16,555 nt of DNA from a candidate division KSB1 bacterium (GTDB taxonomy: Bacteria; Zhuqueibacterota; JdFR-76; DREG01). Both the position numbers and the translations under genes were made by a program. The DNA is taken from contig JADFJB010000104.1 in the NCBI GenBank assembly GCA_022566355.1, forward strand, positions 1 to 16,555, in the 5' to 3' direction. Positions 8,946 to 12,597 of this stretch are shown piece by piece. Position 1 is the first letter of the stretch. Each line of letters starts with the position of its first letter. Under the pieces are notes generated by a model. The model saw only the letters and a program-made list of their open reading frames with translations. It had not been told where the DNA came from and searched no databases.

Positions 8946-9015
8946 GCCACGGATTCACACGGATTATCACTGATGGTATCAATAAATAAACTGTTTATCC
9001 GTGTCGATCTGTGGC
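8946..9015. repeat. Inverted repeat between convergent genes, possible bidirectional terminator
   Basis: The left arm 8946-8964 (GCCACGGATTCACACGGAT) pairs with the right arm 8997-9015 (ATCCGTGTCGATCTGTGGC) at 16 of 19 positions around a 32-base AT-rich loop. It sits exactly between the phosphoesterase stop (8925) and the antitoxin stop (9017), where both transcripts would end. The CACGGATT-type wording recurs between genes in many bacteria as an interspersed palindrome. Confidence 0.65.
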
Positions 9016-9016
9016 C

Positions 9017-9283
9017 TCAATTTCTTTCCTCGTTAATATTTTTCAGCAAGTCTTTGGCATTTACTGTTTTGCCAGATTGATGTTCTTTTTTCGCCGTTTC
9101 AAATTCTTGTTCTAAATGAAAATGTTTTGCTAAAATGAAATCTTGCAGTTCTTCATCATCAATTTTTGATAGCAAAGCATAAGGATGACCATTTTTAGTA
9201 ATGACAACATCATCATCCTCATTTGCCATTTTAATATATTTTGATGGGGAACGGCTTAATTCTCTGATATTAATAAATTGCAT
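9017..9283 (-). CDS. Phd/YefM-type antitoxin, orphan
   Basis: This 88-residue protein resembles the Phd/YefM antitoxin fold. The N-terminal INIRELSRSPSKYIKMANE is followed by DVVITKNGHPYALLSKI, the strand that carries the typical ITKNGxPxAVL pattern. The C-terminal half is charged and helical, which in this family is the toxin-binding region. Such proteins bind operator DNA as dimers and neutralise a partner toxin (Doc, YoeB, RelE or PIN types), usually encoded immediately downstream. Here the downstream side is the convergent phosphoesterase, and upstream (9284-9755) has no toxin frame, so no partner is visible. The ATG at 9281-9283 is preceded by AGGAGC, a good ribosome binding site, so it may be expressed. 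Confidence 0.75.
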   Translation of the reverse strand: MQFINIRELSRSPSKYIKMANEDDDVVITKNGHPYALLSKIDDEELQDFILAKHFHLEQEFETAKKEHQSGKTVNAKDLLKNINEERN

Positions 9284-9755
9284 TAAGTGCTCCTAATATT
9301 ATATGTCAGTACAATTGGCATTACAACATAGCAAAAAAAAGAGAGGCAACCAAACGAATTTATGGGTAAAATGGTTGAGTTCATTCTAAAAAGGTGGGAT
9401 ACCGATTCCATCGCTCTCATAATATTTGTTTTTATGTATCAATTTTTTTAAAAAAGCGATGGCATCGGTTTTTAGAGTAGACTCATGGTTAGAATATACA
9501 AAATGCCCACCCACTCATACCGAAACGAATTCACAGGTTTCCCGATCGTTACGCTTGAAATAATAAATTAACCAATCGCTTATGCCGAACTGATCACTAA
9601 AATATTATGCGCAGGTTAGTTCCTTTAGATTTGCTGTGAACCGGTTGGTCCAGTAATAGAACATGGTGAGGCATGAAGTTAAAGGATAAGTTCGAACCTG
9701 CTCAATTTAGGTTCTGCTACTGTCAGTGAACATATGATGTCAGCATCAACTCATA
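9284..9755. other. 472-bp intergenic region with a MITE-like element
   Basis: No coding frame can be supported. The region contains the palindromic element at 9377-9484 (listed separately) and a small hairpin GAACCT/AGGTTC at 9694-9714 downstream of the M16 gene; this hairpin lacks a U-tract and is not a convincing terminator. Confidence 0.5.
9377..9484. mobile_element. MITE-like 108-bp palindrome with 6-bp direct repeats
   Basis: The element starts GAGTTCATTCTAAAAA (9377-9392) and, read from the other end, GAGTCTACTCTAAAAA (13 of 16 identical). A second inner pair, CCGATTCCATCGCT (9402-9415) against CCGATGCCATCGCT (reverse of 9455-9468), matches 13 of 14. The left arm carries 9 extra bases between the two blocks, and the loop is AT-rich. 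Perfect direct repeats ATGGTT lie immediately outside, at 9371-9376 and 9485-9490, as expected of a target-site duplication. It has no coding capacity, so transposition would need a transposase elsewhere. A stable structural RNA or regulatory hairpin is the alternative. Confidence 0.6.
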
Positions 9756-11222
9756 TTACTTGCCAGCCAAAACTGGTGGCTTACCCAAAACATCCTCAAT
9801 AGTCATCATTTTAATAGAGCCCAATTTAAGGTCACGCACACCCTTCTCAATCTTTTCGCGATCTCCGACAATTATGAAAGCCATTTTATCCGGCACAATA
9901 TATTTTTGTGCCACTCGTTGGACATCGGCTTTGCTGACACTGAGAATTTGCCGGGTATATTGATTGAAATAGTCTTCGGACAGATTATAAATGACCAAAG
10001 TCTCCAATTGATTAGCAATTCCGGAAACCGTTTGAAACCTCGCTGGGAAACGCAATGCAACAAAGTTTCTCGCCCGTTCCATTTCATCGTCAGTGACGGG
10101 TTGGAGGATGCCATTCAATTCTTTCATGAATTCCACCAGGGCTTTGTCGGTTACATCCGTCTGAACTGCGGATGAAGCGGTAAAGGGACCGGGCTCCGGG
10201 CGAAAACCAAAAGAAGTTCTGGCGCCGTAGGTGTAACCTTTGTCTTCACGCAGGTTTTGGTTCAACCGGGAGGCAAACGAACCGCCTAAAATGGTATTCA
10301 TCACGACGATTGCTGAATAATCATCAGAAGTTCTTGCAACACCAATCCGTCCGATACGAATTTCGGATTGGGCTGCTCCGGGTTTATCAACCATATAAAC
10401 CGTTCGTTTTTGAATCTGCTTGGCAGGAGGCAAGGATACCTTCGCTTTTTTCCCGGAAGTCCATTGTCCAAAAACGTTTTCCAATTTTCGTACAACAGAT
10501 TTAGGGGTTACATCCCCTACAACGATCAGAGTAGCATTTCCGGAATGAAAGTATTTGGTATGAAATTCTTTTAAATCCTGTGTTTTAAATTTTCTCAGAC
10601 TTTTCTCACTACCAATGGAAGGTATTCCGTAAGGATGGCTTTTACCAAAAAGCGTACGGTCATACAGAACGGAGGCAATATTACGCGCTTCATCATGCCA
10701 TTGAATCAAGGTGGTTAATCGTTGTTTCCTTTGTCTTTCCAGTTCCTCCTCAGGAAATGTGGGATGCATAGCAATATCCGCCATAAGCTCTAATGCCGGA
10801 TCCAATTTTGATAAAGGTGTACGAAGCGAAATTTTTGAAGTATGCAGACCGGATGAAGACGAGATGTTTGCACCAAGAAAATCGATGGCATCCGCCAATT
10901 CCAGTGCATTTCTTGAGCCTGCACCTTCGTCCATCATCGCGCTGGTGATACTGGCTAAACCCGGTTTGCCCTTGGGATTTAGCACTGCTCCGGCATTTAC
11001 TAAAAGATTAACCTGAACCAAAGGAACTTCATGCTTTTCCATGAGAAGAACCGGTAAACCATTACTGAGCTTGAAGCTCTGGATTTCAGGCAGGCTCATG
11101 GAAGGAGGCGGCGCTAATTTTGGCGGTGAACTGCGATCCGGTTTTTGCGCATTTACCGAAAAAACAACCAGGTTAAAGGTCAAAAATAAGATAATAAAAG
11201 AATTACGAACGATACATTTCAT
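9756..11222 (-). CDS. Exported M16 peptidase subunit, non-catalytic (R/Y-type) partner
   Basis: I chose the ATG at 11220-11222, giving 488 residues with a clean Sec signal (1-25, ending VNA). A start 19 codons earlier would bury it and overlap the upstream gene. The protein has the two-domain M16 (insulinase/pitrilysin) layout, but the zinc-site helix reads GLASITSAMMDEG, so HxxEH is replaced by S91, S94 and A95, and it should not bind zinc. Its second domain keeps the Arg/Tyr pair (R325 and Y332 in LREDKGYTYG) that binds substrate in heterodimeric M16 enzymes. The upstream gene has the reverse arrangement. The two genes are separated by one base (TAA-A-ATG), with GGAG inside the end of the first, which points to translational coupling and a 1:1 complex in the periplasm. 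Confidence 0.9.
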   Translation of the reverse strand: MKCIVRNSFIILFLTFNLVVFSVNAQKPDRSSPPKLAPPPSMSLPEIQSFKLSNGLPVLLMEKHEVPLVQVNLLVNAGAVLNPKGKPGLASITSAMMDEGAGSRNALELADAIDFLGANISSSSGLHTSKISLRTPLSKLDPALELMADIAMHPTFPEEELERQRKQRLTTLIQWHDEARNIASVLYDRTLFGKSHPYGIPSIGSEKSLRKFKTQDLKEFHTKYFHSGNATLIVVGDVTPKSVVRKLENVFGQWTSGKKAKVSLPPAKQIQKRTVYMVDKPGAAQSEIRIGRIGVARTSDDYSAIVVMNTILGGSFASRLNQNLREDKGYTYGARTSFGFRPEPGPFTASSAVQTDVTDKALVEFMKELNGILQPVTDDEMERARNFVALRFPARFQTVSGIANQLETLVIYNLSEDYFNQYTRQILSVSKADVQRVAQKYIVPDKMAFIIVGDREKIEKGVRDLKLGSIKMMTIEDVLGKPPVLAGK

Positions 11223-11223
11223 T

Positions 11224-12597
11224 TTAGTTTGTCTCCATTTTAGTTGCTGCCAATTCAGTCTTTCCCTGGGGAACCACACTTAAAACCACGCGGCCGTCAT
11301 CTCTTAAGTAACTCTGAACGATCGCTTGAATATCCGTTACACCAGCCGCTTTATAACGAGTTAAATCTTCGTTGAAATAATCGGGATTTCCGGTGGCAAA
11401 ATAATAGCTGTTCAACAGATCGGCTTTGCCGCCAAAGCCGCCAATTCGTTCTAATCGACGTAAAAAACCGGACTCTTGTTGATTAACAGCACGCTGCAAT
11501 TCTCTATCAGTGGGAGGATTTTCCTTCAATTTGTTGATCTCTTCCTGAATGACGGCCTCTAACTCGCCAAGCGTATGGCCGCTGCGAGCCGTTGCAATGA
11601 TGTAAAAGGCTGAAACAAGCTTTTTAGAAGCCTGGAACGAAGAAACACTCTGGGCAATTTGTAAATCATAAACCAGACGTTTATATAATCGAGAATTCTT
11701 TCCGCCTGTTAATATGTTTGCAAGCAGATCGAATTCAGCATCGCCGGGGGCAAAATGCGCCGGAGTTAACCATACCATAAAAAGCCTGGGAAGCTGCACT
11801 TTATCTTCAAGAATCTCGCGCTTTTCCTCGGCCAGATATGCCACAACAGATCCCATCGGCCCAACGGCAGGTCCGCGTGGAATTTCGCCAAACCATTTCT
11901 CCACCATTGCTAAAGTTTTAACCGGATCGATATCGCCGGCAATGCTAAGGCTGGCGTTATTCGGGCCATAATACCTTTTGAAAAAATTGACTACATCTTC
12001 ATAGCTTGCTGCTGAAAGATCTTCCATTGAACCAATGGTCGGCCAGTTATATTTATGTTCGCGAGGGTATAAGTTCTCATCGATGAGGATCCATGCCATG
12101 CCATATGGGCGGTTTTCATAGGATTGCCTGCGCTCATTTTTCACCACGTCACGCTGACCATCTACTTTACCTGGAGACATGGCATCCAATAAAAATCCCA
12201 TACGATCCGATTCCAGGAAAAGCGCCAGATCCAATGCATTGCTGGGAACATCCTCCCAGTAATTTGTGCGATCAGAATTTGTCGATCCGTTATTGTTGCC
12301 ACCGGCTGCTTCAAGCCATTCATCGAATTTGCCTTCAGGTACATTTCCCGAACCCTCGAACATGATGTGCTCGAACAAGTGGGCAAAACCGGTACGGCCA
12401 GGACTTTCACGCCCTGAACCAACGTGGTACCACATATTCACACTGACCATAGGTGTCGAGTGGTCTTCATGCAGAATGACGTTGAGTCCGTTATCCAGAA
12501 TATGGCGGGAGTATTCGATCTGGATGTTTTTATCCTGGGCTGTTACTAAACCAGTAAGACCAAAAAGTAATAGTGCAATTAACCCATTTCGATTCAT
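11224..12597 (-). CDS. Exported M16 zinc peptidase, catalytic subunit
   Basis: This 457-residue protein has a Sec signal (1-20, ending VTA) and the inverted zinc motif H73-L-F-E76-H77 in GFAHLFEHIMFEG. The third ligand is probably Glu155 in VVKNERRQSYENRPYG, at the normal distance. Glu76 is the general base. It is a compact M16B/C-type enzyme of two homologous halves that cuts short unfolded peptides. The second half has LVYDLQIAQSV where the partner carries the Arg/Tyr pair, so substrate binding probably depends on the downstream subunit, as in the MPP beta/alpha and Sphingomonas M16B pairs. The ATG is preceded by AAGGAGAACATGCC. It is first in the two-gene operon, and the 323-bp region upstream should hold the promoter. 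Confidence 0.92.
   Translation of the reverse strand: MNRNGLIALLLFGLTGLVTAQDKNIQIEYSRHILDNGLNVILHEDHSTPMVSVNMWYHVGSGRESPGRTGFAHLFEHIMFEGSGNVPEGKFDEWLEAAGGNNNGSTNSDRTNYWEDVPSNALDLALFLESDRMGFLLDAMSPGKVDGQRDVVKNERRQSYENRPYGMAWILIDENLYPREHKYNWPTIGSMEDLSAASYEDVVNFFKRYYGPNNASLSIAGDIDPVKTLAMVEKWFGEIPRGPAVGPMGSVVAYLAEEKREILEDKVQLPRLFMVWLTPAHFAPGDAEFDLLANILTGGKNSRLYKRLVYDLQIAQSVSSFQASKKLVSAFYIIATARSGHTLGELEAVIQEEINKLKENPPTDRELQRAVNQQESGFLRRLERIGGFGGKADLLNSYYFATGNPDYFNEDLTRYKAAGVTDIQAIVQSYLRDDGRVVLSVVPQGKTELAATKMETN

Follow-up and report, generated by a model that had tools for sequence, protein, structure and literature searches.

A short intergenic palindrome in a candidate division KSB1 bacterium is very probably a MITE with IS1182-type ends

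In a candidate division KSB1 bacterium, the gene for a PhdYeFM-type antitoxin (positions 9017-9283, minus strand) and the 3′ end of the gene for an M16 peptidase (9756-11279, minus strand) flank a palindrome that is bounded by two copies of the hexanucleotide ATGGTT. Is this palindrome a mobile DNA element, or is it a structured RNA or another kind of dispersed hairpin that is retained for its fold? The locus is part of a 16,555-nucleotide stretch of DNA (contig JADFJB010000104.1) that was analysed as a whole and that we call the window. We conclude that the element is very probably a MITE with IS1182-type ends, presumably moved in trans by an IS1182-type transposase. As an aside on its surroundings, the MITE is located 93 bp upstream of the start codon of the antitoxin gene, which is an orphan with no evident toxin gene adjoining it.

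A renewed reading of the sequence finds the coordinates given in a preliminary description for the palindrome and its ATGGTT repeats to be exact. The repeats occupy 9371-9376 and 9485-9490, and are read as target-site duplications both from the sequence and from the copy-specific duplications around other copies of the element. They enclose a body of 108 bp (9377-9484, plus strand, GAGTTCATTCTAAAAA...TTTTTAGAGTAGACTC), oriented with its IS-type left end first, in which there are no ORFs of 80 or more amino acids. The left terminal repeat GAGTTCATTCTAAAAA (9377-9392, plus strand), which together with the T at 9376 reads TGAGTTCATTCTAAAAA, is defined by a phylum-wide consensus and by the motif that precedes a transposase gene. 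It is followed by nine left-end-specific bases, GGTGGGATA (9393-9401, plus strand), recognized in the host's own copies, in related MITEs and at the left end of an IS. Next come the left arm of an inner palindrome, CCGATTCCATCGCT (9402-9415, plus strand), a repeat in the alignment of all copies whose stem also occurs as a stand-alone hairpin, and an AT-rich loop that separates the inner arms (9416-9454, plus strand) and holds no ORF, as judged from the sequence, the ORF list and the alignment. The right inner arm AGCGATGGCATCGG (9455-9468, plus strand), which the alignment gives as AGCGATTGAATCGG in most copies, is directly abutted by the right terminal repeat (9469-9484), whose minus-strand reading is GAGTCTACTCTAAAAA. 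The outer arms pair at 13 of 16 positions (9377-9392 with 9469-9484), and the terminal consensus TGAGTYNAYTCTAAAAA is present in both orientations at MITE ends. The two ends are nonetheless not equivalent (left TGAGTTCATTCTAAAAAGGTGGGATA, right TGAGTCTACTCTAAAAA), and GGTGGGATA belongs to the left arm only, with no counterpart in the right arm of the window MITE.

The preliminary description proposed looking for further copies with the same ends in the host genome (G000; 4.62 Mb in 213 contigs), and many were found: a search of this genome with the window element yields 36 matches at E <= 7e-6. Thirty full-length copies, approximately 80-98% identical, could be aligned, and a covariance-model search of the same genome recovers much the same set. 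There are several truncated copies besides, and several of these are found at contig ends, as expected because repeats break an assembly. A search of 58 other genomes, the nearest of which belong to other genera, gave nothing for the element beyond short weak matches and brought up no empty target site; likewise, the exact pattern of its left arm has no match in the GTDB r220 genome collection or in viral contigs. Thus, this MITE subfamily seems to be limited to the host species among the genomes searched. Two of the copies, at the end of contig C179 and at C74:14751, have the right flank ATAATAGCGAGTAA in common while their left flanks differ; with one of them at a contig end, the assembly has probably made a join at the repeat.

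Most of these copies carry a target duplication of their own. Specifically, 22 of the 30 copies with both flanks are each bounded by a perfect 6-bp duplication that is specific to the copy and reads ANNNNT; examples include ATGGTT, ACATTT, ATAGTT, AAGCTT and AAAGGT. Here the left six bases are read so as to end in the T of TGAG, and the right six so as to start with the A of CTCA; counted in this way the duplication measures 6 bp, but it measures 4 bp when the terminal A and T are counted to the element, and the uninterrupted target would be ANNNNT in both cases. At two loci (L009 and L020), the printed flanks reveal perfect 7-bp duplications, AGAAGAT and AATATAT. When only the inner positions are compared, left and right flanks are identical at 102 of 120, whereas random re-pairing of the flanks (10,000 shuffles) yields 43 on average and never more than 66. 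The passive, transposase-less element with a 6-bp target duplication that was proposed from the sequence is thus well supported by its copies, ends and duplications, from which we infer that its mobilization occurs in trans.

The same ends are also found well beyond the host. Of 81 genomes from the phylum, 18 contain the exact consensus TGAGTYNAYTCTAAAAA, representing 16 of 58 genera, whereas a reversed control pattern has a single match in all 81. Places with the motif include further short elements that share these ends and are flanked by A-N4-T duplications. Among 25 related MITEs from other genomes, the duplications match at six of six positions in 15, at five of six in nine and at four of six in one, counts that serve as an illustration rather than a rate, as the elements were partly picked for a good match. 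Their interiors are mutually unrelated, save for a few common core types. Cores enclosed by these ends, that of the window element among them, include the GATTCCATCGCT hairpin and palindromes beginning CCACGAATT, TGTCATTCTGAGCG, GCCCTGAAGGGC and CCAGGTATTTT. Weak RNA-like relatives returned by a covariance-model search were also read, and each is either a MITE with the same ends or a stand-alone hairpin of the inner stem.

Which transposase could recognize such ends? An IS with matching terminal repeats, the second item that the preliminary description proposed to look for, was located, but in genomes other than the host, once with a broken gene and once with a single end. The first is a 1,285-bp element (L126, in genome G010, which belongs to the phylum of the host) that carries TGAGTCCACTCTAAAAAGGT (TGAGTCCACTCTAAAAAGGTATTTG) at one end, AGAGTTCATTCTAAAAACAATGG at the opposite end and a broken transposase between them, the N-terminal part of which resembles DUF772 just under the cut-off while the C-terminal part matches DDE_Tnp_1_6; its flanks form an imperfect duplication, with four of six positions matching. 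The second (L153) is in Candidatus Cloacimonadota AUK116 (JAGGWC010000038.1), where TGAGTTCACTCTAAAAAGGT (TGAGTTCACTCTAAAAAGGTATTTT) is located 124 bp before the ATG of a transposase that extends for 556 amino acids, runs off the contig end and is closely related to that of L126. Only this one terminal end is visible, and it is the sole match to the exact terminal motif in the 1.5-Mb AUK116 genome. The protein matches PF05598 (2.2e-6) and PF13751 (1.1e-6). The closest curated model for the longer transposase proteins is that of IS1182, albeit under its equivalog cut-off, and the L153 protein gives 7.3e-25 and 87.8 bits with this NCBIfam model. Because this score is below the 270-bit equivalog cut-off, the L153 transposase is a divergent IS1182 relative rather than a strict member. 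More distant relatives on haloarchaeal plasmids (L157-L160) encode transposases that are 33-36% identical, between ends that read TGAGGGCACCGTAGAAAGGG or similar, and all four are flanked by 7-bp A-N5-T duplications (AGACCTT, AGTGTCT, AGAGGTT and AGAGCAT, two called by script and two by reading the printed flanks). All transposases found with these ends are of the DUF772 + DDE_Tnp_1_6 type.

Searches of the host with PF01609 (DDE_Tnp_1), PF00665 (rve) and PF13751 (DDE_Tnp_1_6) turned up no intact transposase bounded by such ends; they returned unrelated IS3/IS21-type genes and, at the end of contig C80, one C-terminal IS1182-type remnant that lacks matching ends. Given that the assembly is in 213 contigs and that repeats are often at contig ends, a multi-copy IS could be missing from it. 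The mobilizer may thus be absent from the assembly only, may have been lost by the host, or may have an external source. On contig C8, two similar ends at a distance of 2 kb have an aminotransferase-like gene between them, and this pair was set aside as a chance occurrence.

The asymmetry of the two ends also has a plausible source in such a parental element. The preliminary description took the nine extra bases of the left arm for an insertion by which a once symmetrical copy had diverged. This reading is not supported, since every full-length copy in the host carries the nine bases after its left repeat, apart from small changes. Related MITEs in other genomes mostly have eight or nine extra bases at one end, G first; in most of them, one end continues with TCTAAAAAG plus seven or eight bases before the palindrome begins, and the other end enters the palindrome directly. 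Moreover, the left end of the IS in L126 and L153 reads TCTAAAAAGGT, the nine-base stretch has its counterpart in the left end TCTAAAAAGG of insertion sequences of the IS1182 type, and the left end of the window element, TGAGTTCATTCTAAAAAGGT, matches that of the group formed by L126, L153 and the haloarchaeal transposons. The nine-base difference is best read as the distinction between left-end and right-end sequence, and the extra bases would be a remnant of the left end of the parental IS.

We therefore favor a model, drawn from sequence comparison, in which the DDE transposase of an IS1182-type IS (DUF772 + DDE_Tnp_1_6) would have bound the TGAGTYNAYTCTAAAAAGG ends in trans and either cut the MITE out or copied it. 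The MITE would then have been joined to staggered cuts six, or sometimes seven, bases apart in AT-rich intergenic DNA, and the duplication would have resulted. Alternatively, a transposase of another family might move the MITE, for example that of an rve-type IS, which would have TG...CA ends and would generate a 4-bp duplication between an invariant A and an invariant T. A 4-bp duplication inside A....T would suit the flanks equally well, and the host has two IS3-type rve transposases near contig starts as well as one IstA-like gene. However, the rve elements of the host do not have these ends, with which only DUF772 + DDE_Tnp_1_6 transposases have been found, and we consider mobilization by another family to be improbable.

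It is less probable still that the element is a structured RNA or a cis-regulatory hairpin maintained for its fold. A strong fold is indeed predicted for both strands (-34 kcal/mol for the plus strand, where shuffles average -20.5, z -4.4; z -8.0 against shuffles for the minus strand). Regardless, a single genome holds at least 30 dispersed copies, the majority of which have a target duplication of their own, and the window element has no Rfam match. When the two-helix structure is imposed on the 30 copies, none of 30 pairs is changed on both sides and covariation does not rise above that of shuffles. Of 29 distinct copies, 10 have lost the pairing at one variable inner pair and 19 at the other. 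The preliminary description held that a single copy in the genome, together with covarying stem changes, would speak for an RNA; instead, there are many copies and no covariation. In addition, the variants GATTGAATC, GATGGCATC, GATTGCATC and GATGGAATC of the right inner arm have been amplified even though most of them break a pair, a pattern that fits the DNA copying of subfamilies and not selection on the fold.

The inner palindrome of the MITE has an existence of its own. The pattern GATTCCATCGCT-NNN-AGCGATGGAATC is present in 11 of the 81 phylum genomes (loci L167-L213), and in most of these 11 the stem is found alone, as a 27-bp hairpin whose 3-base loop is free. There are 65 matches in one genome (G072) and three in the host (G000:C20:18895-18921, C114:9462-9488 and C117:9080-9106), compared to zero for the control; the single match in each of two further genomes (G062 and G042) is a MITE. 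The pairs that flank the stand-alone hairpin covary (CT/AG, CC/GG, CA/TG, GC/GC, TT/AA and AC/GT). These hairpins are mostly intergenic, often just downstream of a gene, and no terminal motif is present within 130 bp of the stand-alone copies read. Contig C29 of the host holds three further hairpin copies with the arm variant GATTGAATC, which is the variant that dominates the MITE. No Rfam match was obtained for the hairpin in the loci tested, and a literature search with its sequence and with one other core returned unrelated papers only. The hairpin could be a terminator, a REP-like element or a protein-binding hairpin. At one locus in another genome (L176, on contig C16 of G015), a related hairpin, GATTCCATCGCT...AGCGATTGCATC, is repeated at least six more times and forms a tandem array in which several copies are spaced 125 bp apart.

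Because the inner stem is also solitary, the window MITE is, on the sequence evidence, a composite of transposon ends placed around an independent hairpin module, and the inner palindrome was probably acquired from a dispersed intergenic hairpin. The solitary copies, with their covarying flanking pairs and variable triloops, might suggest that the entire element is a palindromic repeat of the REP/RAYT or terminator type that involves no DDE transposase and has terminal repeats only incidentally, but this is highly unlikely given that the stand-alone hairpins lack terminal repeats while the window element has precise ends, duplications and many insertion sites, that other families with the same ends hold unrelated cores, and that a search of 9200-9760 gave no terminator-like site. 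The inner module alone may be of the REP/RAYT or terminator kind.

Returning to the MITE with IS1182-type ends, this family by itself is an ordinary one in a poorly studied phylum, for which the ends, the target rule ANNNNT and the likely mobilizer are now identified. An IS1182-related MITE is already known. MITEPye1 of Paracoccus yeei (159 bp), with ISPye18 of the IS1182 family, resembles the window MITE in being short, intergenic and free of ORFs, in its IS1182-like TIRs and direct repeats, in its long stem-loop fold and in its presumed mobilization in trans (PMC11578231). As compared by description, MITEPye1 differs in having 4-bp direct repeats and 1-3 copies per chromosome, rather than the A-N4-T duplications and at least 30 copies seen here (PMC11578231). 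QMITE2, Chunjie and other prokaryotic MITEs, likened by description and not by terminal motif, are similar in size, AT-rich intergenic sites, stem-loops, loss of the transposase and truncated copies that look like REP elements; the review that covers them does not mention IS1182 (PMC10969869). The IS1182-type ISs identified here (L126, L153 and L157-L160) share the terminal motif TGAG..CA...TA.AAAGG with the window MITE; they carry a transposase, whereas all that the MITE retains is approximately 26 bp from the left end and 17 bp from the right. Features that belong to the window MITE itself are the number of its copies, its ANNNNT rule, the conserved asymmetry between its left and right ends, and a core of composite make-up.

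The sole unusual part is the modular build, in which the same ends surround unrelated palindromes in many genomes and at least one of these palindromes is also a solitary dispersed hairpin. One tentative explanation, which we rate as possible but doubtful, is that one pair of IS1182-type ends repeatedly enclosed different intergenic palindromes of its hosts, picked up and exchanged through the preference for stem-loops that is reported for this transposase family, such that MITEs would be a vehicle that spreads common intergenic palindromic repeats between genomes. IS1272 of Staphylococcus, another IS1182-family system that interacts with palindromes, reportedly inserts at stem-loops and replaces the target stem-loop, leaving no duplication (PMC5678879). 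The window MITE, in contrast, has clear duplications and carries its palindrome inside the element, and the duplication forms compared range from A-N4-T here and A-N5-T in the four haloarchaeal relatives to 4 bp for MITEPye1 (PMC11578231) and none for IS1272 (PMC5678879). Given the reported targeting of stem-loops by IS1272 (PMC5678879), a structural preference of the transposase behind the pick-up of cores is a reasonable hypothesis, and no more. If capture does occur, it would offer a testable account of how the anonymous intergenic palindromes of many environmental bacteria arise and spread, and would tie in with the reported action of IS1182-family elements on stem-loops.

Two observations concern the CCACGAATT-type cores. 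One genome (G069) contains elements of 593 and 603 bp (L137 and L142) that have the ends of the window MITE and are flanked by perfect ANNNNT duplications; no clear transposase is present between these ends, the interiors are alike in opposite orientation, and the two may be long non-autonomous elements that have a border of the CCACGAATT type. The window itself has a second palindrome, GCCACGGATTCACACGGATTATCA / TGTTTATCCGTGTCGATCTGTGGC (8946-9015; arms of 24 nt, 79%), which separates the metallophosphatase gene from that of the antitoxin, and this palindrome is similar to the CCACGAATT-type cores of MITEs from related genomes.
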